64,000 bases of DNA, taken from positions 868,001 through 932,000 of the forward strand of contig NZ_CP041235.1 of the NCBI RefSeq assembly GCF_014905115.1, in the 5' to 3' direction. A program made the translations under genes and the position numbers. Below are positions 38,417 through 48,154 of this stretch, in pieces. Origin of the DNA: Sulfurimonas sediminis (GTDB taxonomy: Bacteria > Campylobacterota > Campylobacteria > Campylobacterales > Sulfurimonadaceae). Positions within the stretch are counted from its first letter, which is position 1. Each line of letters opens with the position of its first letter. The notes under the pieces were generated by a model that saw only the letters and a list, made by a program, of their open reading frames with translations, was not told the DNA's origin and did not search any database.

Positions 38417-39745
38417 ATGAAAAAAATTGTACTTAAGTTTTTAGCTCTTATAATGCTTTTTGCATTCTCAAATGCGATGGCATCGGAGCATGCAACAGTT
38501 GCTGAAGAAGCACGAACAACACATAAAGAAGAGAACTATCATCCAAAACCTATGAGTGAAATGATTGTTAATTTTCTAAAATCAACAGGAATTGTCGCTC
38601 TTGTAAGTCCAAGAGAGGATGAGATGAGTGCGACAGGACAAAAGATGAGTGATTTTCATAAAGGTCTTGGCCGTGTGATTATGATTCTTATCGTCTTTTT
38701 ACTTTTTTATCTTGGAGTCGCAAAAGGGTTTGAACCATTGTTACTCTTACCAATTGCCTTTGGCGGATTATTGGCAAATATTCCTATTGCCGGTATTGCA
38801 GGAGAGCATGGTTTCCTTGGTGTAATTTACAATATGGGACTTTCAAATGAGCTTTTTCCTATTATCATCTTTATGGGTGTTGGGGCAATGACTGATTTTG
38901 GTCCACTGCTCTCGAACCCTAAAACTGCACTACTTGGTGGAGCAGCTCAGTTTGGTATTTTCGGGACGCTTGTTGGAGCAGTTGCTCTTGCACATTTTGG
39001 TTTTGTTGACTTTACTCTGCAGCAGGCTTCTGCAATTTCAATAATTGGTGGAGCAGATGGTCCGACTTCTATTTTTATTGCAACAAAACTTGCACCAGAA
39101 CTTTTAGGGGCGATTGCGGTTGCTTCATATAGTTATATGGCTATGGTGCCAATTATTCAGCCTCCAATTATGAAGGCTTTGACAAATGAAAAAGAGAGAA
39201 AGATTAAAATGACAACATTGCGTCATGTTTCTCGCTTGGAAAAACTTGTATTTCCAATACTTGTTTTGATGCTGGCAATTTTAGTTCTACCAGAGTCTAC
39301 GCCATTAATTGGTGCATTTATGTTTGGTAACTTCTTAAAAGAATCAGGTGTTGTAGAGCGTTTAAATGATACATTGCAAAATGCTCTTATCAACATTACA
39401 ACGATTTTCTTAGGGCTTGGTGTTGGTTCAAAACTTGCAGCTGATCAATTTCTTGTACCTGAAACAATGTTTATTATGGTTTTAGGAATTGTTGCATTTT
39501 CTGTGGGTACTGCAGCAGGTGTATTAATGGCGAAATTTATGAATCTTTTCCCTGGAAACAAGATAAATCCTCTTATTGGTTCAGCGGGTGTTTCTGCTGT
39601 TCCTATGGCAGCGCGTGTATCAAATAAAGTCGGTATGGAATATGACCGCACTAATATGCTTCTAATGCATGCGATGGGTCCAAATGTGGCGGGAGTTATA
39701 GGTTCAGCTGTAGCAGCTGGTGTATTGATCTCTTTATTCCAATAA
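38417..39745 (+). CDS. oadB: Oxaloacetate decarboxylase beta subunit (sodium pump)
   Basis: 442 residues. N-terminal signal-like helix ([20 protein letters not shown]) and polar stretch, then about ten membrane helices. OadB signatures: '[24 protein letters not shown]' (in two parts), '[20 protein letters not shown]' and the C-terminal '[12 protein letters not shown]'-like '[18 protein letters not shown]'. It couples decarboxylation of carboxybiotin to Na+ export. Starts 4 bp after oadA. The signal-like start before the first conserved helix is longer than in the classic Klebsiella protein. Confidence 0.94.
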
Positions 39746-40104
39746 TAATTAATCGGCACGAAATTCAAAGCACCCCATTTACGCTTTAGCGACAGGGATG
39801 TCGGCATTTAGTGCCAGAAGCGACGCAATTGCGTCGTTATCTCCTCATCGATGCAAATACTTCAAATTCCAATATTTTTTTCATAAAGAATTCATAGTTC
39901 AAATAATTATTTATTATTTATTAAATTTGAAAATTATGCTGTTACAACTTGAAACAACAGCTAAGAATATTTATGCATAAGCATGAAATAGGGTTGCTAT
40001 ATTCAATAATATTCGCATAATTGTATCGAACAATTATATTTTTGAATATTCACTATGTAGAATAAAAATATAATAAATTGTAACTAATTAAATCAGGCGA
40101 ATAA
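39746..40104. other. 359-bp non-coding gap rich in short palindromes
   Basis: No convincing gene. Contains a degenerate relic of the intergenic repeat family (about 39755-39817, with ACGCTTTAGCG and GTCGGCA...GTGCC), a perfect 16-bp palindrome CGACGCAATTGCGTCG (39821-39836), stems GCTGTT/AACAGC (39938-39961), ATGC/GCAT (about 39973-39984) and AATTGT/ACAATT (40019-40035), and the palindrome TGAATATTCA (40043-40052). Terminator of oadB and promoter/operator of the response-regulator gene should both be here. Confidence 0.5.
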
Positions 40105-40809
40105 GTGACAAATACAGAATTATTATCTATAACAAAAAAACTTACTGTTTTATATGCAGAAGATGACTTGGAGATGAGAAAAAGTACAACTGCTTTATTG
40201 AAAAATTTTTTCTCTCATATTTATACTGCATTTGACGGTAGAGAAGCCCTGGAAATATATAATAACAATCTTGCGAATATTGATCTTGTGATTACAGATA
40301 TCTTGATGCCACACTTAAACGGCATAGAACTTACAAAAGAAATATTATCTATAAATAAAGAACAAAAATTTATAGTTATATCTGCTTATAATGAAACAAG
40401 CTATTTTATTGAACTAATTAATACCGGAGCTGTTATAGGGTTTTTGCAAAAACCTATTAAACGTCAAGAATTATTGAATATTTTAACGACTGCATCTCTC
40501 TTTTATAAAGAGGAATATGAAACTACTATCCCACTGAAAGATGGATTTTTATGGAATAAAGAGCTTAAGAGACTTTTTTTAGAAGGTAAAGAGATTCCAT
40601 TGAGTGCCAATGAAACTAAACTTTTAGATCTGTTTTTAAGCTATCCTAACACTGTCTTTTCTGCTATTGATTTGCACATTTATCTTTTTGAAGACACTAA
40701 AGAGTTTTCGGAAGATTCTATAAAAAGCTTTATTAAACGTCTCAGAAAAAAGATCCCTTTATCCTCAATACAAACACACAAAGATTTAGGTTATTCTCTG
40801 AGTATCTAG
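40105..40809 (+). CDS. OmpR-type response regulator
   Basis: 234 residues from a GTG behind CAGGCGA. Receiver domain 1-125 with 'LYAEDD', phospho-acceptor Asp65 in 'ITDILMPHLNG', and 'LQKPIKRQELL' near residue 115. The C-terminal winged helix (about 140-234; 'NETKLLDLFLSYPNTVFSAI', 'IKSFIKRLRKKIPLSSIQTH') is of the OmpR/PhoB type. Binds DNA, most likely the direct repeats directly behind its own gene. No kinase is adjacent; the nearest is at 46988. Confidence 0.92.
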   Translation: MTNTELLSITKKLTVLYAEDDLEMRKSTTALLKNFFSHIYTAFDGREALEIYNNNLANIDLVITDILMPHLNGIELTKEILSINKEQKFIVISAYNETSYFIELINTGAVIGFLQKPIKRQELLNILTTASLFYKEEYETTIPLKDGFLWNKELKRLFLEGKEIPLSANETKLLDLFLSYPNTVFSAIDLHIYLFEDTKEFSEDSIKSFIKRLRKKIPLSSIQTHKDLGYSLSI

Positions 40810-40812
40810 TTT

Positions 40813-40846
40813 TTGACACCTTCTTGACACTTCTCAATAATATAAT
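40813..40846 (+). promoter_or_regulatory. Direct-repeat box and -10 element of the signalling operon
   Basis: TTGACAC (40813-40819), four bases, TTGACAC (40824-40830): two identical 7-mers at an 11-bp period, the layout OmpR/PhoB-family regulators bind. TATAAT lies at 40841-40846, so the box covers the -35 area, as at class II activated promoters. The PAS gene starts 33 bp after the -10. That the regulator encoded just upstream binds here is inference. Confidence 0.6.
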
Positions 40847-40878
40847 TTGTCTAATAAAATTTTTTATTAGGATATTTT

Positions 40879-41364
40879 ATGGAAATTCAAATGAAGCAAG
40901 ATGAACTCATTGTCTCAAAAACAGACACAAAAGGGCGAATTACCTATGGTAATTTCTATTTTATTTCAATATCTGGCTATTCAGAACAAGAGTTACTCAA
41001 TGCTCCGCATAATATTTTGCGTCATCCCGATATGCCTCGTGTTATCTTTAAACTTTTGTGGGATCGCATTCAAGCCAAAAAGTATATCAATGCTTATGTA
41101 AAGAACCTTACAAAAAATGGAGACTATTATTGGGTTTTTGCAAATGTGACTGCATCTTTAGACGTGCATGGAAACATTATTGGCTACTATTCAGTTAGAA
41201 GAGCTCCATCAGTAAGAGGTATAAATATAATTGAAAAACTCTATAAAGAGTTGCGTCAAGCTGAAGCGAGTGGTGGAATAAGTGCTTCATTGAAAATATT
41301 GGAAAAACAATTACAACAAGAGGGGCAGAACTATGATGAATTTATTCTCAATCTTCAAAAATAA
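40879..41364 (+). CDS. Aer-type PAS sensor protein
   Basis: 161 residues, soluble. PAS domain (about 10-115) with the Aer/CetB hallmarks '[21 protein letters not shown]', '[20 protein letters not shown]' and '[17 protein letters not shown]'. Aer PAS domains bind FAD and sense redox state; some relatives bind haem. A helical tail follows (120-161). It overlaps the next gene, a soluble chemoreceptor, by 32 bp, echoing the split CetA/CetB energy-taxis pair of Campylobacter. Confidence 0.88.
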
Positions 41365-42628
41365 AAAAAGAAAAAGTGATGAAGCACTACTGGATCAGGT
41401 AAACAGTGTAATGGCAGACGCGGCAAACGGTAACCTTGAAAAAAGAGTTACCAATATTTCGCAAGATTCCAAATACTATAATATGGCATGGAATTATAAT
41501 AATTTACTAGACCAGGTTGAAGCATTCATGCGTGACAGTGAAACTGCTATAAAGCTTGCAACCAATGGTGATAACAGTATCGTGATGTTTCAAGATGGAT
41601 TTAAAGGTATATTTGCCCGTTCGGTTGAGCCGATAAATAAATCATTAGAGGGCATTAAGTCAGGAATACAGTTAAGAACACAGGGAAATCTTTCGAAAAA
41701 ATTTAATGAAATCGGAGGCGGAAGTGTTGGCGGTGTTTTACAGGTTAAAAAAGATATAGAGTTTGGTAATGAGATATCCAAGACAATTTTACAAACATCA
41801 AAAGATACCAGCAAAGCATCACAGGATAGTATCCAATCGATAGAATCTGTTCAAAATAATTTTGAAAAACTTGATGAAAGCATAACTGAAACAGTGAAAG
41901 GGATTGATGCCCTCAATCAACAGTCATTAGAAATTTCTACCATTGTTGAATTGATTCAAGATATAGCAGAACAGACAAACCTGCTCGCACTCAATGCTGC
42001 GATAGAAGCTGCACGTGCCGGTGAACATGGTAGAGGTTTTGCCGTTGTTGCCGATGAAGTAAGAAAACTTGCAGAAAGAACACAAAAAGCTACGACAGAG
42101 ATATCTATGACTATTTCAACTTTAAAACAGGAAACCAATGAAATATCAGAAGAATCTGAGACAATGTACGAATTGGCAAAAGAGTCTCAAAAATATCTGG
42201 AGAGTTTATATACGACACTGCAAAGTTTTAACAGATCTGCAAAAGAAACTGCCGATAATGCAAATCATATTAACAATATTTTTCTTATATCCGTTGCCAA
42301 AATTGATCATATTGTTTTTAAATCAAAAGCGTATTCGACACTTTTAAGTCAGAATATTTCGGAACCGTTAGCAGATCATCTTTCATGCCGTTTTGGAAAA
42401 TGGTATCTTAATGACGGTAAAGAGCAGTTCGGCAAAACAAAAGTGTATAACAAACTTGATGCTCATCACAAAGTAGTCCATGACTCTGCCATAAAAAACA
42501 TGAAGTTTGCCAAGAGTAAAACAGCACTTTTCCCAGAAAACACAGAAGAGATTATTAAAAATTTTACCGTTATGGAAAATGCAAGTAACGAGCTTTTTCA
42601 TTTACTTGATTTAATGATAGAGGAGTAA
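41333..42628 (+). CDS. Soluble chemoreceptor with C-terminal CZB domain
   Basis: 431 residues without membrane helices. The N-terminal 20-150 resembles HAMP-like helices ('NGNLEKRV', 'QGNLSKKF'). The signalling hairpin tip is '[20 protein letters not shown]' followed by '[19 protein letters not shown]'. The C-terminal part (about 325-431) is a chemoreceptor zinc-binding domain: His in '[14 protein letters not shown]', '[11 protein letters not shown]', and paired His in '[12 protein letters not shown]'. CZB domains sense zinc or hypochlorous acid through a Cys-zinc switch. It probably takes redox input from the PAS protein upstream. Confidence 0.9.
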
Positions 42629-42632
42629 AAGA

Positions 42633-44312
42633 GTGCCACTGCAGGAGTTGCAAAATTACGCAAAAGAACTTCACTTGCTTTTTGTCGAAGATGATGTAGA
42701 TGCGCGAACAAGTACATCGGAAATGTTGAAAAATATTTTTACCCATATTACAGTTGTTACAAACGGACAGGAAGGGATAGAAAAATTTCAAAATGAAAAA
42801 TTTCATATAATTATTACAGATATCAATATGCCTGTAATGAACGGTCTTGATATGATAGAAAAAATTCGCCAACAAGATATAAAAATCCCAATCTTCATAT
42901 TATCTGCCTATAATGATGCAGAATATATTTTACGAGCGATTCAACTTGGGATAGACGGATTTATTATAAAACCGCTTATCTATCAACAGTTTCTTACAGT
43001 TTTAAAAAAAGCATTGGAAAAGATTCATCTAGAGACACTTGCTAAAAATTATCAAGAACAGCTTGAAATAGAAATTAAAAAACAAACGCAGGAGTTGAGG
43101 CATAAGTTATATTTTGATGATTTAACCGGTTTGTGCAACCGCTATGCTCTGTTTGAAGATTTAAAAAAAATTACTGTACCAATTCTTTTTATTATAGATA
43201 TCAATGGATTTAAATCTATTAATGAAATTTATGGCGCAGAGACTGGTTCTTTTGTATTACAAGAGTTTGCACATTTTCTACAACACTTTACTGCAGCTGA
43301 AAATTATAAAACATATAGAATTTCGGCAGATGAATTTGTTGTTTTGGATGACTGTAAATATATTGATTTTGAAAAATATGAAATTTTTCTACAAGACTTC
43401 TTTAGAGAGTTTGCATCTTTTCGGGTTGTAACTGAGCAGGATATAATTTCGATAGAAGTTACTGTAGGGATGTCAACTTCACAATATAATTCGTACGAAT
43501 ATGCAACAATTGCATTGGAGTATGCTAAAAAACATAAAAAACAGTATATGATGTATTCCAATACTATTGATAACCGATCTGCAAAACAGGATATTCTTAT
43601 CTGGAAAGATAAGATTAAAAATGCAATTGAGAATAATGATATTGTTACAGTTTACCAAGGTATCGTCAATCAGGAAGAAAAAGCAGTCAAGTATGAAGCT
43701 CTCATGCGACTTCGTGATGAAGATGGCACACTGATCTCTCCTTACTATTTTTTGGATATTGCAATAAAAACAGGACTCTACCCTCAACTCTCTTCGTATG
43801 TAATATTTACGAATCTGAAAAAGATAAAAGAGATACAAATACCTATTGGCATTAATTTTACAGTCAATGATATTAAAAACAAACTTTTTATTGATGAGAT
43901 TGAGGATTATATTAAAAAGAATCCTGATGTCGGTTCGTTGGTGGTAATGGAGATTACTGAGAGTCAGAGTATGGAAAATTTTGATGATATAAGAATATTT
44001 ATTGATCGTTTTAGGAAATATGGTGTAAAATTTGCCATTGATGACTTTGGTAGCGGATTCTCAAATTTTGAAAATATTTTAAATATAGCACCAGACTATA
44101 TTAAAATAGATGGTTCACTTATAAAAGATATTGATAAAAATGAAAAATCTTTTATTCTGGTAGAAGCGATAGTGGAATTTTCTCATAAACTCAATATAAA
44201 AGTGATTGCTGAGTTTGTACATTCTAAAAAGATTTTTGAAATATTAAAATCTTTTCAAGTGGATGACTATCAAGGTTTTTATTTTTATGAACCAAATGAA
44301 AAAATAATTTAG
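42633..44312 (+). CDS. REC-GGDEF(degenerate)-EAL phosphodiesterase
   Basis: 559 residues from a GTG. Receiver 1-125 (phospho-acceptor Asp63 in 'ITDINMPVMNG'), coiled linker, a GGDEF domain (about 158-315) whose motif is SADEF (231-235) and so probably inactive as cyclase, and EAL (about 325-559) with 'KYEALMRLR', 'GINFTVNDI', 'VMEITESQ', 'IDDFGSGFSNFE' and 'IKIDGSLI'. The late motif reads AEFVH instead of AEGVE, but the acidic metal ligands are kept. Predicted c-di-GMP phosphodiesterase controlled by phosphorylation. Confidence 0.9.
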   Translation: MPLQELQNYAKELHLLFVEDDVDARTSTSEMLKNIFTHITVVTNGQEGIEKFQNEKFHIIITDINMPVMNGLDMIEKIRQQDIKIPIFILSAYNDAEYILRAIQLGIDGFIIKPLIYQQFLTVLKKALEKIHLETLAKNYQEQLEIEIKKQTQELRHKLYFDDLTGLCNRYALFEDLKKITVPILFIIDINGFKSINEIYGAETGSFVLQEFAHFLQHFTAAENYKTYRISADEFVVLDDCKYIDFEKYEIFLQDFFREFASFRVVTEQDIISIEVTVGMSTSQYNSYEYATIALEYAKKHKKQYMMYSNTIDNRSAKQDILIWKDKIKNAIENNDIVTVYQGIVNQEEKAVKYEALMRLRDEDGTLISPYYFLDIAIKTGLYPQLSSYVIFTNLKKIKEIQIPIGINFTVNDIKNKLFIDEIEDYIKKNPDVGSLVVMEITESQSMENFDDIRIFIDRFRKYGVKFAIDDFGSGFSNFENILNIAPDYIKIDGSLIKDIDKNEKSFILVEAIVEFSHKLNIKVIAEFVHSKKIFEILKSFQVDDYQGFYFYEPNEKII

Positions 44313-44320
44313 GAGAAAAA

Positions 44321-44746
44321 ATGGATAAAAAAATGGCACTAAGCAAGAAGCAAATCGGACTTGAAACTTCTATGGTTGCAAACAAATTAACAGATGAGTG
44401 TATTTATGTAAGCCTATTTGGACTGTTGGATTCAGCTCGTATAGAAGATGTCTCAAAAAAAATAACCAAAATCAGTGAATCAGACAAAATTGTCTGTGTT
44501 ATATTGGATTTATACAATGTTGATGCAATTGATACAGCAGTTGCCGGATATATAAACAGGTTGGGAAATATACTTAAATTGATGGGTATTGAACCTATCA
44601 TATGTGGCATTAAAGCAGAGTTGGCCGAGAAGATGGTAAAAACAGATATTCAGTTTAGCGGAATACAGATAATTAGAAATTTACAGGATGCACTGCTTGT
44701 GAGTTTTAAAGTTACAGGGTATAAACTTATAAAAACAGAAAAATAG
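44321..44746 (+). CDS. STAS-domain protein (anti-sigma antagonist-like)
   Basis: 141 residues. STAS fold with 'IYVSLFGLLDSARIEDVSKK', 'IVCVILDLYNVDAIDTAVAGYINRL' (in two parts) and 'GIEPIICGIKAELAEKMV', closest by eye to the RsbS/RsbR group. The phosphorylation site would be Thr in 'DAIDTAVA'. Proteins like this are switched by an RsbT-type kinase, which is what the next gene encodes (8 bp away). Confidence 0.85.
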   Translation: MDKKMALSKKQIGLETSMVANKLTDECIYVSLFGLLDSARIEDVSKKITKISESDKIVCVILDLYNVDAIDTAVAGYINRLGNILKLMGIEPIICGIKAELAEKMVKTDIQFSGIQIIRNLQDALLVSFKVTGYKLIKTEK

Positions 44747-44753
44747 TTGTATT

Positions 44754-45410
44754 ATGTCACTTGTTTTCCATATTTTAGATGAGATTGAAGCATATCAATG
44801 TGCAAGACAAATAAACGAAATAGCGAAAGAGTTTGGTTTTTCTCAGTTTGATGCAGGTATGTTTTCAATTGCAGTTACAGAGATTGTTATTAATAGTATC
44901 CGCTATGCAAAGGATGTAAAAGTAAGTTGCAGATATACGCAAAACAACAAAGGACTGGAAGTTTATATTGAGGACAAAGGCAAAGGTATAAAAAACATTC
45001 AACACTCGTTACAAGACGGCAATTCTTCTACAAAAGACAGTCTGGGGTTTGGGCTTGGTGCTGCAAAAAGATCAGTTGATGAGTTTTTGATCGAAAAAAG
45101 TGATGCAAGCGGAACATCAATTGTTCTTAGAAAATATATTGATGAGCCTAGGTATGAATACTCTCCGATTTCTGTTAAAAAGGAAGCAAATCAGTTTAAC
45201 AGTGATGCATATTTTATTAAACATTATGATGGTGATAAAAGCTTATTTGCTATTATTGACGGTAGTGGAGACGATCTGCCGGCATATAAAACCGTACAAA
45301 GTGTAAAAGGACTTCTGTTGGAAGAGTACAGGTTGCCCTTAGAAGACATTGTAAGGTATATTAATCCACCACAATCCTCTAAAAACTCAATTTTAATATT
45401 TGAGCGATAG
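44754..45410 (+). pseudogene. RsbT-like kinase/SpoIIE-type phosphatase gene, 5' part
   Basis: Residues 1-130 form a GHKL ATPase of the anti-sigma kinase type: 'FSIAVTEIVINSIRYAKD' (N box), 'IEDKGKGIKNIQ' (D-x-G-x-G) and 'GFGLGAAKRSVDEF'. Residues about 138-204 begin a PP2C-like RsbX/SpoIIE phosphatase ('SDAYFIKHYDGDKSLFAIID', 'GSGDDLPAYKTVQSVK'). At 45366 the gene enters an insertion sequence and the frame ends with 15 foreign residues from the element. The ATPase part is intact and may still be made; the phosphatase is cut in two. Rejoining with 46631-47001 gives one open frame of 327 residues. Confidence 0.88.
45358..45366. repeat. Target-site duplication, left copy
   Basis: ATATTAATC, identical to 46622-46630, flanking the ISAs1-like element on the left. 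Removal of the element and one copy restores the host reading frame. Confidence 0.9.
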
Positions 45411-46621
45411 AGTCATCCAAATCCCATCTATTGTTGATGAGTTGTTCTTGTATAGATTTTGCACCATTAAGGTGTAAAATATTCAAAATCATACTTCTAA
45501 GAATAGTCATTAAAAATGGATTTAAATGACAATTATGAGCATCTTCTAAAAGTGAATTATCTTTGTATTGATGCATGGTTTCCACTTTCCAATGGTGTAA
45601 AATTTTATTGTGAAAGAATTCTGCACTTTCATGAAAATTTGCAATACAGAATTGAATTCTAGTGCTATTAGTAATCTCGCCAGTTTTATGATTTGTTGAC
45701 TCTACTTTTTTTATAACTTTTATTATTGAGCGAATATGAGTTATGCCATTATGATAAAAAGTAGTTGGTTGATATACAAACACCTTCCTATTAATCCATT
45801 CATTAGATTGTTGGACAGGTTTAGCCTTGTAAATATTTGTCGGTTTTATATCTCTTGAAATTTCATCTATTTTATCAAGTAAGGTTTTTTGATTATCTTT
45901 TACCTTGGCAATATATTTTGAACCACTATTTTCGATAGCATCAAGAGTTTTTTTGGGTATTCATTGCATCAAAAGTAAAGATAAATTCATCTCCCAATTC
46001 CCCTATCATAGCCTGAAGGGCAGGTATTTCATTCGACTTCTCTGCTATTTGTTGATGAGCAATTATTACCCCTATCTCAGATAAAACAGCACCAACTACT
46101 TCTATTGATCTCTTATCTTTGTATTTGCTGCCATTCATAACCTTGCCATCTACGCTCAGGTGCTTTCCTCTTGTATCGACATAGGTTCTTATCCATTTCC
46201 TAAAAACAACTTCAACTTCTTGGCTATCAACTTTCGCTAACACATCAGAAACCAAACTTTTCTTTGGTGTTAATATAAACTCTACACCTAATAATCTTTT
46301 AACTTGTTCTTTTTGAATATGCTTCTCTATCCAAATAGATATTTGCTTATAGTCAGTTGCTCCCATCAATCCAGCCAATACTGAAAGATATAAAATATGT
46401 TCTAGTCGGTGTCTTTTACCTTGAGGTTTCCGATAGTCTGTCACCTCTGAAAACAATTTTAAAAGTTGATTTGATTGGGCTTGATCTGCATACCCTCTTA
46501 TAGAACGCTTTTTCGCTAATTTTTCTCTTGTTTTTGTTGCCATATGTAATCACTTTAGTTTTTTAGAGTTTAAGCAATTATTGTTCTTCTTTTAAATTCC
46601 TGTTTTTTTAGGATTGGGGTG
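45367..46621 (-). mobile_element. ISAs1-family insertion sequence, complete ends
   Basis: 1255 bp. The left end CACCACAATCCTCTAAAAAC matches the right end read inwards, CACCCCAATCCTAAAAAAAC, at 17 of 20 bases. Flanked by the 9-bp direct repeat ATATTAATC. Carries one transposase gene on the minus strand, disabled by a frameshift. Sits inside the kinase/phosphatase gene in opposite orientation to it. Size, inverted ends and duplication length fit the ISAs1 family. Confidence 0.93.
45379..46543 (-). pseudogene. ISAs1-family transposase, frameshifted
   Basis: N-terminal 200-residue frame (46543-45941) with 'YRKPQGKRHRLEHILYLSVL', 'LSVDGKVMNGSKYKDKRSIE' (first Asp) and 'FTFDAMNTQK' (second Asp). 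Translation breaks at a run of seven A (45948-45954 as T on the plus strand). The other frame goes on 'TLDAIENSGSKYIAKVKDNQ' to the C-terminal 'HHWKVETMHQYKDNSLLEDA', holding the catalytic Glu. Dropping one A gives 387 residues, normal for the family. So the gene is inactive unless slippage repairs it. The stop codon lies within the left inverted repeat. Confidence 0.9.
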
Positions 46622-46630: not shown

Positions 46631-47001
46631 TTATGCTTTCCAATAATGATGATTTTGAAGATATCACTCTTGTGCTGTTGCGTTTATTACCTGATAAACT
46701 CGAGTATATGATTTTGGGAAATGGTTTTATTGTCTCTTATCCTGAGATGAAGTTTCAAGCATATAGGCAAGCTTCCTGCCTGAAGTTGCCTGAAGATTTA
46801 TCAGTACAACAAGAGCTGCTTCCTGAGCAGTTTTGTATTGTACTGGCAAGTGACGGTATTGAGTATAATGATTTTTTAAATAAAGAGGTTTTTAATTTAT
46901 CAACTTTAGAGTTGGCAACAGATATTTTCAATAAATATAATGTCGATGATGCTTCAACCGTAATAGCTATAAAGAGGGAAAAGAGCGATGTCAGAAACTA
47001 A
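46631..47001 (+). pseudogene. Kinase/phosphatase gene, 3' part
   Basis: C-terminal half of the RsbX/SpoIIE-like phosphatase cut off by the insertion: 'DFEDITLVLLRLLPDKLEYM', 'ILGNGFIVSYPEMKF', 'FCIVLASDGIEYNDFL' (metal-binding Asp-Gly) and the final 'VDDASTVIAIKRE' (Asp-Asp). In the joined protein these would meet the first metal Asp (IIDGSG) of the 5' part. An ATG at 46633 could restart translation, but the fragment lacks part of the active site. It overlaps the histidine kinase start by 14 bp. Confidence 0.88.
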
Positions 47002-48154
47002 GCAGTCTCTTGCACTGCATCAATATTTAAGTGGCATAATAACAAATATACCCTACGGGATTCTTACTGTTTCTGAAAATTCAGAAATTAGCATGCTCAA
47101 CAGTAATATATTAGAAATTTTGGAAATCAACGAAGAAAATTTACATGATTATATAGATAAAAATTACAAAAAACTTTTTTTTGAGGTTCCAAAAATTATT
47201 GATATCTATGTGGAGAAAATGATTCAGAAAAATCAACTAAGCGTTGACATAGAACAGTTTCCTTTTAAAAATAAAATTCTGAATATCAAAATGAGAGCGA
47301 TGCTTGATGGGACGATTTTTATTATAGAAGATATTACGCAAAGGGTTCAGCAAGAAAAGAAACTCAGAGAGCTAAACAAAACACTGGAAGAGCGGATTCA
47401 ACAAGAAGTAGTGAAAAACAGAAAACAGGATCAGCAACTCCAACAACAATCCCGTTTGGCACAAATGGGAGAGATGATCTCAATGATTGCACATCAGTGG
47501 AGACAGCCTCTTGGTGCCATTGCCAGTACATCTGTTAACTTATCTATGAAAATAGAGCTGGAATCTTATAATTTGAATAATTTACAAGAGCAAGAAGCGT
47601 GTCAAAATTATTTTTTACAACAGCTAAATGTTATTGAAAATCTTGTTCAAAATCTTACAAATACCATTGATGATTTCAGAAATTTTTATAAACCAAACAA
47701 ACAGTCAATTTTATGCACTTTTGAAGAAGTTATTGATAAATCATTAAATATCATTTATGCATCCTTGAAAAATAATAATATTCAAGTGAATTTTAATTAC
47801 ATTCGCTTAGAAAAAATAAAAATGTATGACAGCGAAATTATGCAGGTTATTCTGAATATTTTAAAAAATGCACAGGATAATTTTCGGGAAAAAAATATTT
47901 CAAACCCTTGTATTGATATAACACTAAAGGATAAAATACTCTCAATCTGTGATAATGGAGGGGGAATTTCAGAAAATATCATACAAAATATCTTTGATCC
48001 TTATTTTTCTACTAAGAGTGAAAAAAATGGTACAGGACTTGGGCTCTATATGTCTAAAATAATTGTTGAAGAACATCATAACGGAAAACTTACTGTTAAA
48101 AACAGTGATGATGGGGTTTGTTTTACGCTAGATTTAAGAGAAAAGACTAACTGA
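46988..48154 (+). CDS. Soluble PAS histidine kinase
   Basis: 388 residues, no membrane helix. A small PAS-like domain (about 10-115, 'NIPYGILTVSENSEISMLNS'), a coiled coil (120-155), and a HisKA-like helix with His169 in 'MIAHQWRQPLGAIAST'. The ATPase domain has 'VILNILKNAQDNF' (N box), 'SICDNGGGISENI' (G1) and 'KNGTGLGLYMSKIIVEEH' (G2). Likely kinase for the receivers at 40105 and/or 42633. The insertion upstream may reduce its transcription. Confidence 0.92.
   Translation: MSETKQSLALHQYLSGIITNIPYGILTVSENSEISMLNSNILEILEINEENLHDYIDKNYKKLFFEVPKIIDIYVEKMIQKNQLSVDIEQFPFKNKILNIKMRAMLDGTIFIIEDITQRVQQEKKLRELNKTLEERIQQEVVKNRKQDQQLQQQSRLAQMGEMISMIAHQWRQPLGAIASTSVNLSMKIELESYNLNNLQEQEACQNYFLQQLNVIENLVQNLTNTIDDFRNFYKPNKQSILCTFEEVIDKSLNIIYASLKNNNIQVNFNYIRLEKIKMYDSEIMQVILNILKNAQDNFREKNISNPCIDITLKDKILSICDNGGGISENIIQNIFDPYFSTKSEKNGTGLGLYMSKIIVEEHHNGKLTVKNSDDGVCFTLDLREKTN

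Follow-up and report, generated by a model that had tools for sequence, protein, structure and literature searches.

The closest described systems are OmpR-family regulators that act at direct repeats, summarized here as far as the cited reports were available in part. In E. coli, PhoB uses tandem direct repeats with an 11-bp period, placed so that a TAN3T −10 element follows 10 bp downstream (PMC1906773), and the Pho box is composed of two 7-bp repeats separated by a 4-bp spacer (PMC4563254). PhoP of M. tuberculosis binds as a tandem dimer to 7-bp repeats with a strict 4-bp spacer, its residue Glu215 contacting bases (PMC4832192), and the site of Helicobacter pylori HP1043 (HsrA) consists of two hexamers with a 5-bp spacer, also with an 11-bp period (PMC5253667). 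For the OmpR-family regulator RR2 of Sulfurospirillum (tetrachloroethene respiration), the direct-repeat site can overlap the −35 region (PMC7755780). As to possible target genes, a small PAS protein is paired with a separate chemoreceptor in CetA/CetB of Campylobacter jejuni (PMC2628428) and in magnetospirillum CetA2/CetB2 (PMC12442639).

The locus studied here lies in the window, by which we mean the whole 64,000-nucleotide stretch of Sulfurimonas sediminis DNA that was analyzed. An earlier note had described two TTGACAC motifs 4 bp apart, a TATAAT 10 bp later and an OmpR-type regulator gene just upstream; both the motifs and the gene were confirmed at the following positions:

40105..40809, + strand: response regulator with receiver and winged-helix domains (OmpR/PhoB type), GTG start, proposed activator (Pfam)
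40813..40819, + strand: first half-site TTGACAC, read from the sequence, conserved in relatives
40824..40830, + strand: second half-site TTGACAC, 4 bp past the first, read from the sequence, conserved
40841..40846, + strand: −10 hexamer TATAAT, 10 bp past the second half-site; TAnnnT at the same offset in 14 of 27 sites

The box reads TTGACAC-CTTC-TTGACAC over 40813-40830 (spacer CTTC, 40820-40823), and the 10-bp interval between its second half-site and the TATAAT is TTCTCAATAA (40831-40840). Upstream of the box, the regulator stop codon TAG (40807-40809) lies 3 bp away; downstream, the next gene begins at 40879. The regulator belongs to the OmpR/PhoB family by its receiver and its Trans_reg_C winged helix, both above the Pfam cut-off (Response_reg 4.9e-20, Trans_reg_C 4.1e-12), and its full-length PDB match is 1kgs, over residues 14-219. 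Read from the sequence only, the protein carries DD at 20-21, TDIL at 64 and QKP at 115, which may be the residues of a phospho-acceptor site.

In the window as well as in relatives, the box is a head-to-tail direct repeat with an 11-bp period, the hallmark of OmpR/PhoB-type DNA sites, and in the window a TAnnnT −10 follows about 10 bp behind it, as in activated promoters of the Pho-box type. The layout of an OmpR/PhoB-family activator site, as the earlier note had called it, is supported by a geometry equal to that given for PhoB in the available part of PMC1906773. From the comparative evidence, we consider it very probable that this is a PhoB-like activator box for the upstream regulator, which would bind it as a tandem dimer in the −35 place and drive a PAS-chemoreceptor-EAL-STAS-kinase operon. 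A tandem dimer replacing the −35 contact of sigma70 appears to be the best reading because the box shares the geometry of the PhoB, PhoP and HP1043 sites.

Chance could account for the repeat as such, since four perfect 7-mer repeats with an 11-bp period occur in the window. The exact TTGACACN4TTGACAC is present as a single copy in the window and is unique in the whole genome (2,320,257 bases); with up to 3 mismatches, 12 matches were found in the window against 7.7 expected, and with up to 2 mismatches, 30 matches in the genome against 21 for the reversed control. Although such a repeat is not rare, chance as the sole explanation was ruled out, because the box, its place and its distance to the −10 are all conserved.

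Conservation was assessed in a set of 149 related genomes, the window's own included, of which 141 contained regulator matches at E 1e-15 or better. The best named match, an Arcobacteraceae MAG at 33%, suggests that these genomes are Campylobacterota. The sole close ortholog of the regulator was found in G011 (92% identical), the next six being 42-47% identical. In G011, substitutions are found in the 4-bp spacer, in the interval of 10 bp and in the leader, yet neither the half-sites nor the TATAAT have changed; a perfect box is also found directly behind the regulators of G036 (44%) and G017 (42%). The box is kept in these orthologous loci, the check proposed in the earlier note, and the loss of the box with both genes retained, which it had named as counter-evidence, was not seen in G011. 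In G036 and G017, the gene behind the box encodes not a PAS protein but a REC-GGDEF-EAL protein, which shares 50-54% identity with the product of the third gene in the window operon. That REC-GGDEF-EAL gene is headed by the box in G079 and G006 too, a few kb away from the regulator, and G025 has a 2-mismatch form on the same contig as the regulator; within the 12 kb examined in G130 (42%-identical regulator), no box was found. When relatives were picked by similarity to the window regulator alone, the box lay within 1.5 kb in three of the seven best (G011, G036, G017) and in none of 22 further loci, three of which (L022, L023, L025 and the like) are as near as 38-41%. The gene order regulator-box-PAS-MCP-EAL-STAS-HATPase was observed only in the window and G011. 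The same order of regulator, PAS and MCP genes occurs without the box in G114 (L029), whose regulator is about 35% identical to that of the window and has a different recognition helix.

A rival explanation is a plain constitutive sigma70 promoter, with the first TTGACA as its −35 element, a 17-bp spacing to AATAAT (40836-40841) and a coincidental second TTGACAC. The TTGACA/AATAAT pair matches 11 of 12 consensus positions and is the best in 39700-41400, a region with 12 promoter-like sites against 8.7 in shuffles. However, both half-sites are kept in G011, G036 and G017, the hexamer at the 17-bp spacing is not, and TATAAT-like hexamers are located 10 (in some sites 11) bp past the second half-site, which makes a plain promoter very unlikely.

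The pattern TGACAC-N5-TGACAC-N10-TAnnnT was detected at 14 sites in 13 of the 149 relatives and, across the order, at 33 sites spread over 29 of 398 genomes, against 2 reversed-control sites in each search; the two genome sets overlap. Eight of the 33 order-wide sites were judged unrelated and 25 were kept: seven of the eight (G298, G152 twice, G235, G338, G362, G380) belong to a common longer repeated element, and the remaining one (G452) lies inside an ORF. In family f20 (loci L078 and L080-L084), the pattern matches share a longer element, GTTTAAGGTTTGGAATATCG...GGTGGTACCTGAGGC, which in several cases stands directly behind an integrase-like ORF and may represent an attachment or RNA-end sequence rather than a promoter. 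Without the −10 demand, TGACAC-N5-TGACAC gave 25 sites in 21 of the 149 genomes against 9 control sites, a notable background. In a list of 27 sites (25 sites plus those of G006 and G079), 14 have TAnnnT at an offset of exactly 10; elsewhere between 0 and 25, each offset has 0-4 sites except offset 12, whose count of 8 is read as overlap with the same A/T-rich stretch. All 14 offset-10 sites lie outside ORFs of at least 120 aa, and 3 of the 13 other sites lie inside. The −10 is at 11 bp rather than 10 in G111, G154 and G226, the interval before it is poorly conserved among 18 aligned sites, and the first gene starts 21-36 bp past it in 24 of the 35 sites with a gene found (37 examined). An exact box in G007 was set aside as chance, since it runs antisense within an ORF and lacks a −10 at 10 bp.

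The presence of this −10 also separates the box from a sigma54 promoter, whose consensus is TTGGCAC-N4-TTGCW, with GG and GC at the −24/−12 steps. The first half and the spacing are similar by eye. In the window, however, GA takes the place of both GG and GC, the box repeats its first half-site in full, and a −10 of sigma70 type stands at a fixed distance behind it, so that a sigma54 promoter is hardly conceivable here. The sites of the relatives were searched with GA fixed and have no bearing on this point.

A link between the box and the adjoining regulator, as the activator-box reading proposes, emerged from the recognition helix. The position that defines the helix class is Lys207 in the window regulator, which aligns by hand with Glu215 of M. 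tuberculosis PhoP. We examined 55 regulators, obtained by profile searches with G111 and G015b added for their boxes, counting a box when it had at most 1 mismatch and a −10 at 9-12 bp within the fetched flanks. Boxes were found for 12 of the 23 regulators of Lys/Arg type, none of the 28 of Thr type and none of the 4 others, the reversed-core control giving 0 of 55; with up to 2 mismatches, the counts were 13/23, 1/28 and 0/4, with one control match among the Thr type. Fisher's p for 12/23 was 3e-6, a value that ignores kinship and comes from a sample partly chosen for boxes. Without G111 and G015b, the box was present in 10 of 21 Lys/Arg regulators versus 0 of 32 of the rest, and without the added loci and the 8 seeds, in 4 of 13 versus 0 of 32 (p 0.005, kinship ignored). 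On the tree, the box-bearing regulators fall into at least two separated groups, with only 2 independent pairs, too few to show anything by themselves. A ratio of 6/7 top genomes versus 7/142 is largely circular, because all 8 profile seeds came from box-bearing loci. The 11 Lys/Arg-type regulators without a box in the flanks searched include those of G079 and G006, with boxes farther off. The box lies 4-25 bp behind the regulator stop at nine loci (G036, G180, G226, G000, G011, G092, G111, G167, G017), overlaps the end of the regulator reading frame in G154, stands between divergent genes in G374 and heads the operon containing the regulator in G015. Changing Lys207 should alter DNA specificity.

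Two variant elements were noted beside these classes. Behind a related regulator in G446 (L202, 1175, reverse strand), a 2-mismatch form, TGATAC-N5-TGATAC-N10-TACAAT, heads a long outer-membrane-efflux-like gene followed by an ABC-type exporter (by eye), possibly a shifted specificity. Loci L152, L153 and L165 of G062, G070 and G074, three genomes with Thr-type regulators, have in common TGACACATAAGTGACAC, near the middle of the locus, outside long ORFs and without a −10 at 10 bp.

Control of the operon by the adjacent regulator, as suggested in the earlier note, is thus supported by the conserved box and the helix-class link. The alternative that another regulator of the same taste binds the box, the adjoining regulator being a positional accident, could draw on genomes and gene neighbourhoods that have the box but showed no such regulator close to it. 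Its repeated adjacency to regulators of one helix class, in several families and with differing downstream genes, makes such an accident highly improbable. Still, boxes without such a regulator nearby, before unrelated-looking genes, speak against the activator-box reading, and the same box may serve other regulators too.

The genes behind the box vary between genomes, with chemoreceptors and GGDEF/EAL proteins frequent among their products. Among the 14 sites of the 149 relatives, a PAS gene followed by a chemoreceptor gene was found in G000, G011, at the second G017 site and in G084, where the next gene carries CheW domains; a REC-GGDEF-EAL gene comes first at the first G017 site and in G036, G006 and G079, and a GGDEF gene in G015 and G086. 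In G087, the box precedes the gene of a NIT-HAMP protein, which the locus end truncates; in G001, a receiver comes first and a HATPase-CheX protein second; in G035, a lipoprotein gene is followed by genes whose products have PelD_GGDEF and DUF3492 domains, the DUF3492 protein presumably being PelF. At the G009 locus, no first gene was found. Beside other regulators of the Lys/Arg class, the genes encode an EAL protein then a CZB receptor (G154, G167), an EAL protein (G111), a HAMP-MCP receptor (G226) or a PAS protein then a CZB receptor (G374). Seven of the 25 kept order-wide sites head a receptor (G420, called by its Cache domain; G425, by likeness to G420; G325), a PAS-receptor pair (G000, G374) or an EAL gene (G167, G418), and others head FixG-like, oxidoreductase-like, LemA-like or lipoprotein-like genes, or one that lies behind a kinase and encodes a small protein. 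It is quite possible, and we propose it tentatively, that the Lys/Arg-helix OmpR class reads TGACAC-N5-TGACAC order-wide and forms an undescribed motile-to-sessile switch of chemoreceptors, c-di-GMP enzymes and matrix genes, the regulon being reshuffled between species and the regulator-box pair kept.

Two families of loci show the box in other surroundings. In family f7 (L068, L070, L071, L091; box at 1501), it separates a long kinase-like ORF from a gene whose product of 70-73 aa (MGDxKKVSGKELAHAIGKTPPAITYMKKQN...) is conserved in the four loci. In family f6 (g57; L085-L090), the box with TATAAT heads LemA-like, lipoprotein-like and other genes, and another regulator may use it there, because the top regulator matches of several f6 genomes are of Thr or other helix type. 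Searches for further targets with up to 2 mismatches showed no enrichment in the window's genome (7 sites, 7 control) or in G011 (9 sites, 6 control), and no second convincing target was found in the window's genome at this threshold; the six other sites there comprise four inside ORFs of at least 100 aa and two outside. Outside ORFs at locus L124 (position 1501; G000:C1:77805-77837), TTACACAGCTTTTACAC with a −10-like hexamer at 10 bp heads the gene of a small unknown protein; it is present in the window's genome and G011, and is possibly the box of another OmpR-type regulator.

In the window, the following genes lie behind the box:

40879..41364, + strand: PAS protein of 161 aa, CetB-like layout (Pfam PAS_3 7.6e-12)
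41333..42628, + strand: chemoreceptor with MCP signalling and CZB domains (Pfam MCPsignal 3.5e-37, CZB 6.8e-13)
42633..44312, + strand: REC-GGDEF-EAL protein (Pfam EAL 1.6e-58, Response_reg 1.7e-24, GGDEF 1.4e-12)
44321..44746, + strand: STAS protein (Pfam STAS 2.1e-13)
44754..45410, + strand: piece of a HATPase gene interrupted by an insertion (Pfam HATPase_c_2 3.3e-11; DNA matching G011 stops at 45364)
46633..47001, + strand: downstream piece of the interrupted HATPase gene (no Pfam match; comparison with G011)
46988..48154, + strand: histidine kinase, candidate partner of the regulator (Pfam HATPase_c 4.7e-19)

The kinase has relatives in the G036 cluster (61% identity, 269 aa) and the G079 cluster (53%, 232 aa) and directly upstream of the G130 regulator (42%, 248 aa), a resemblance that suggests a partner kinase and a feedback loop. 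The insertion (45365-46617, 1253 bp) has no counterpart in G011, where the HATPase gene is intact; about 10 bp that occur once in G011 stand on either side of it. Of its two minus-strand ORFs (45379-45783 and 45941-46543), one has a DDE_Tnp_1-associated domain, and the transposase itself therefore looks split; lying upstream of the kinase gene, the insertion could weaken kinase expression in the window's genome.

A different role for the regulator, as a repressor at the box, or an operon mainly read through from the regulator gene, would fit the location of the box 3 bp past the regulator stop codon and the outcome of a search of the + strand of 39700-41400, in which no terminator-like site was found. 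We regard both as decidedly unlikely, given that the box also heads genes away from any regulator; activation is favoured because the box position is fixed relative to the −10, as in PhoB-activated promoters. We therefore infer an activator box at which a tandem dimer of the phosphorylated regulator would occupy both TTGACAC half-sites in head-to-tail fashion, on one helix face. The box would occupy the −35 position, 10 bp before the −10, from which the regulator would recruit sigma70 RNA polymerase to a putative start site. Transcription of the operon would yield the PAS protein, the CZB chemoreceptor, the REC-GGDEF-EAL, STAS and HATPase proteins and the kinase at the operon end, probably the partner of the regulator, closing a positive feedback.

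The locus offers a concrete and directly testable regulator-box pair in bacteria for which few described binding sites of two-component regulators were found, and it would place a chemoreceptor pair and a c-di-GMP protein under one switch, joining genes for the steering of movement with a signal molecule linked to surface settling. In literature searches covering few subscription journals, the box was not found among reports on Sulfurimonas regulators or Campylobacterota OmpR-family sites, nothing was found on TGACAC with response regulators of Epsilonproteobacteria, and a TTGACAC direct repeat with a response regulator was met for Halomonas PhoB only, in a source available in part. The kind of system is well known, and the pairing of regulator class and box appears to be new.

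Compared with E. coli PhoB and the Pho box, the repeat period and the −10 distance are equal, whereas the half-site here is TTGACAC, that of PhoB being CTGTCAT-like, and the regulator belongs to a different subfamily. The Pho regulon comprises phosphate uptake genes, in contrast to the receptors and c-di-GMP proteins of the window operon; membership in the Pho regulon proper was rejected on the half-site and these downstream genes. M. tuberculosis PhoP, whose chains match the profile of the window regulator's DNA-binding domain weakly, shares the repeat geometry but differs in its half-site (TCACAGC versus TTGACAC) and in recognition-helix residues. HP1043 is an orphan-type OmpR-family regulator with a like geometry, but with TTTAAG, a poorly kept second repeat and different targets, and RR2 of Sulfurospirillum, from the same phylum, has the site CTATW-N17-CTATW, unlike the window box in spacing and targets, both as described in the available parts of the reports. 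The pairing of a small PAS protein with a separate chemoreceptor is the same as in CetA/CetB and CetA2/CetB2, but in the window the receptor has a CZB domain and the next gene encodes an EAL protein.
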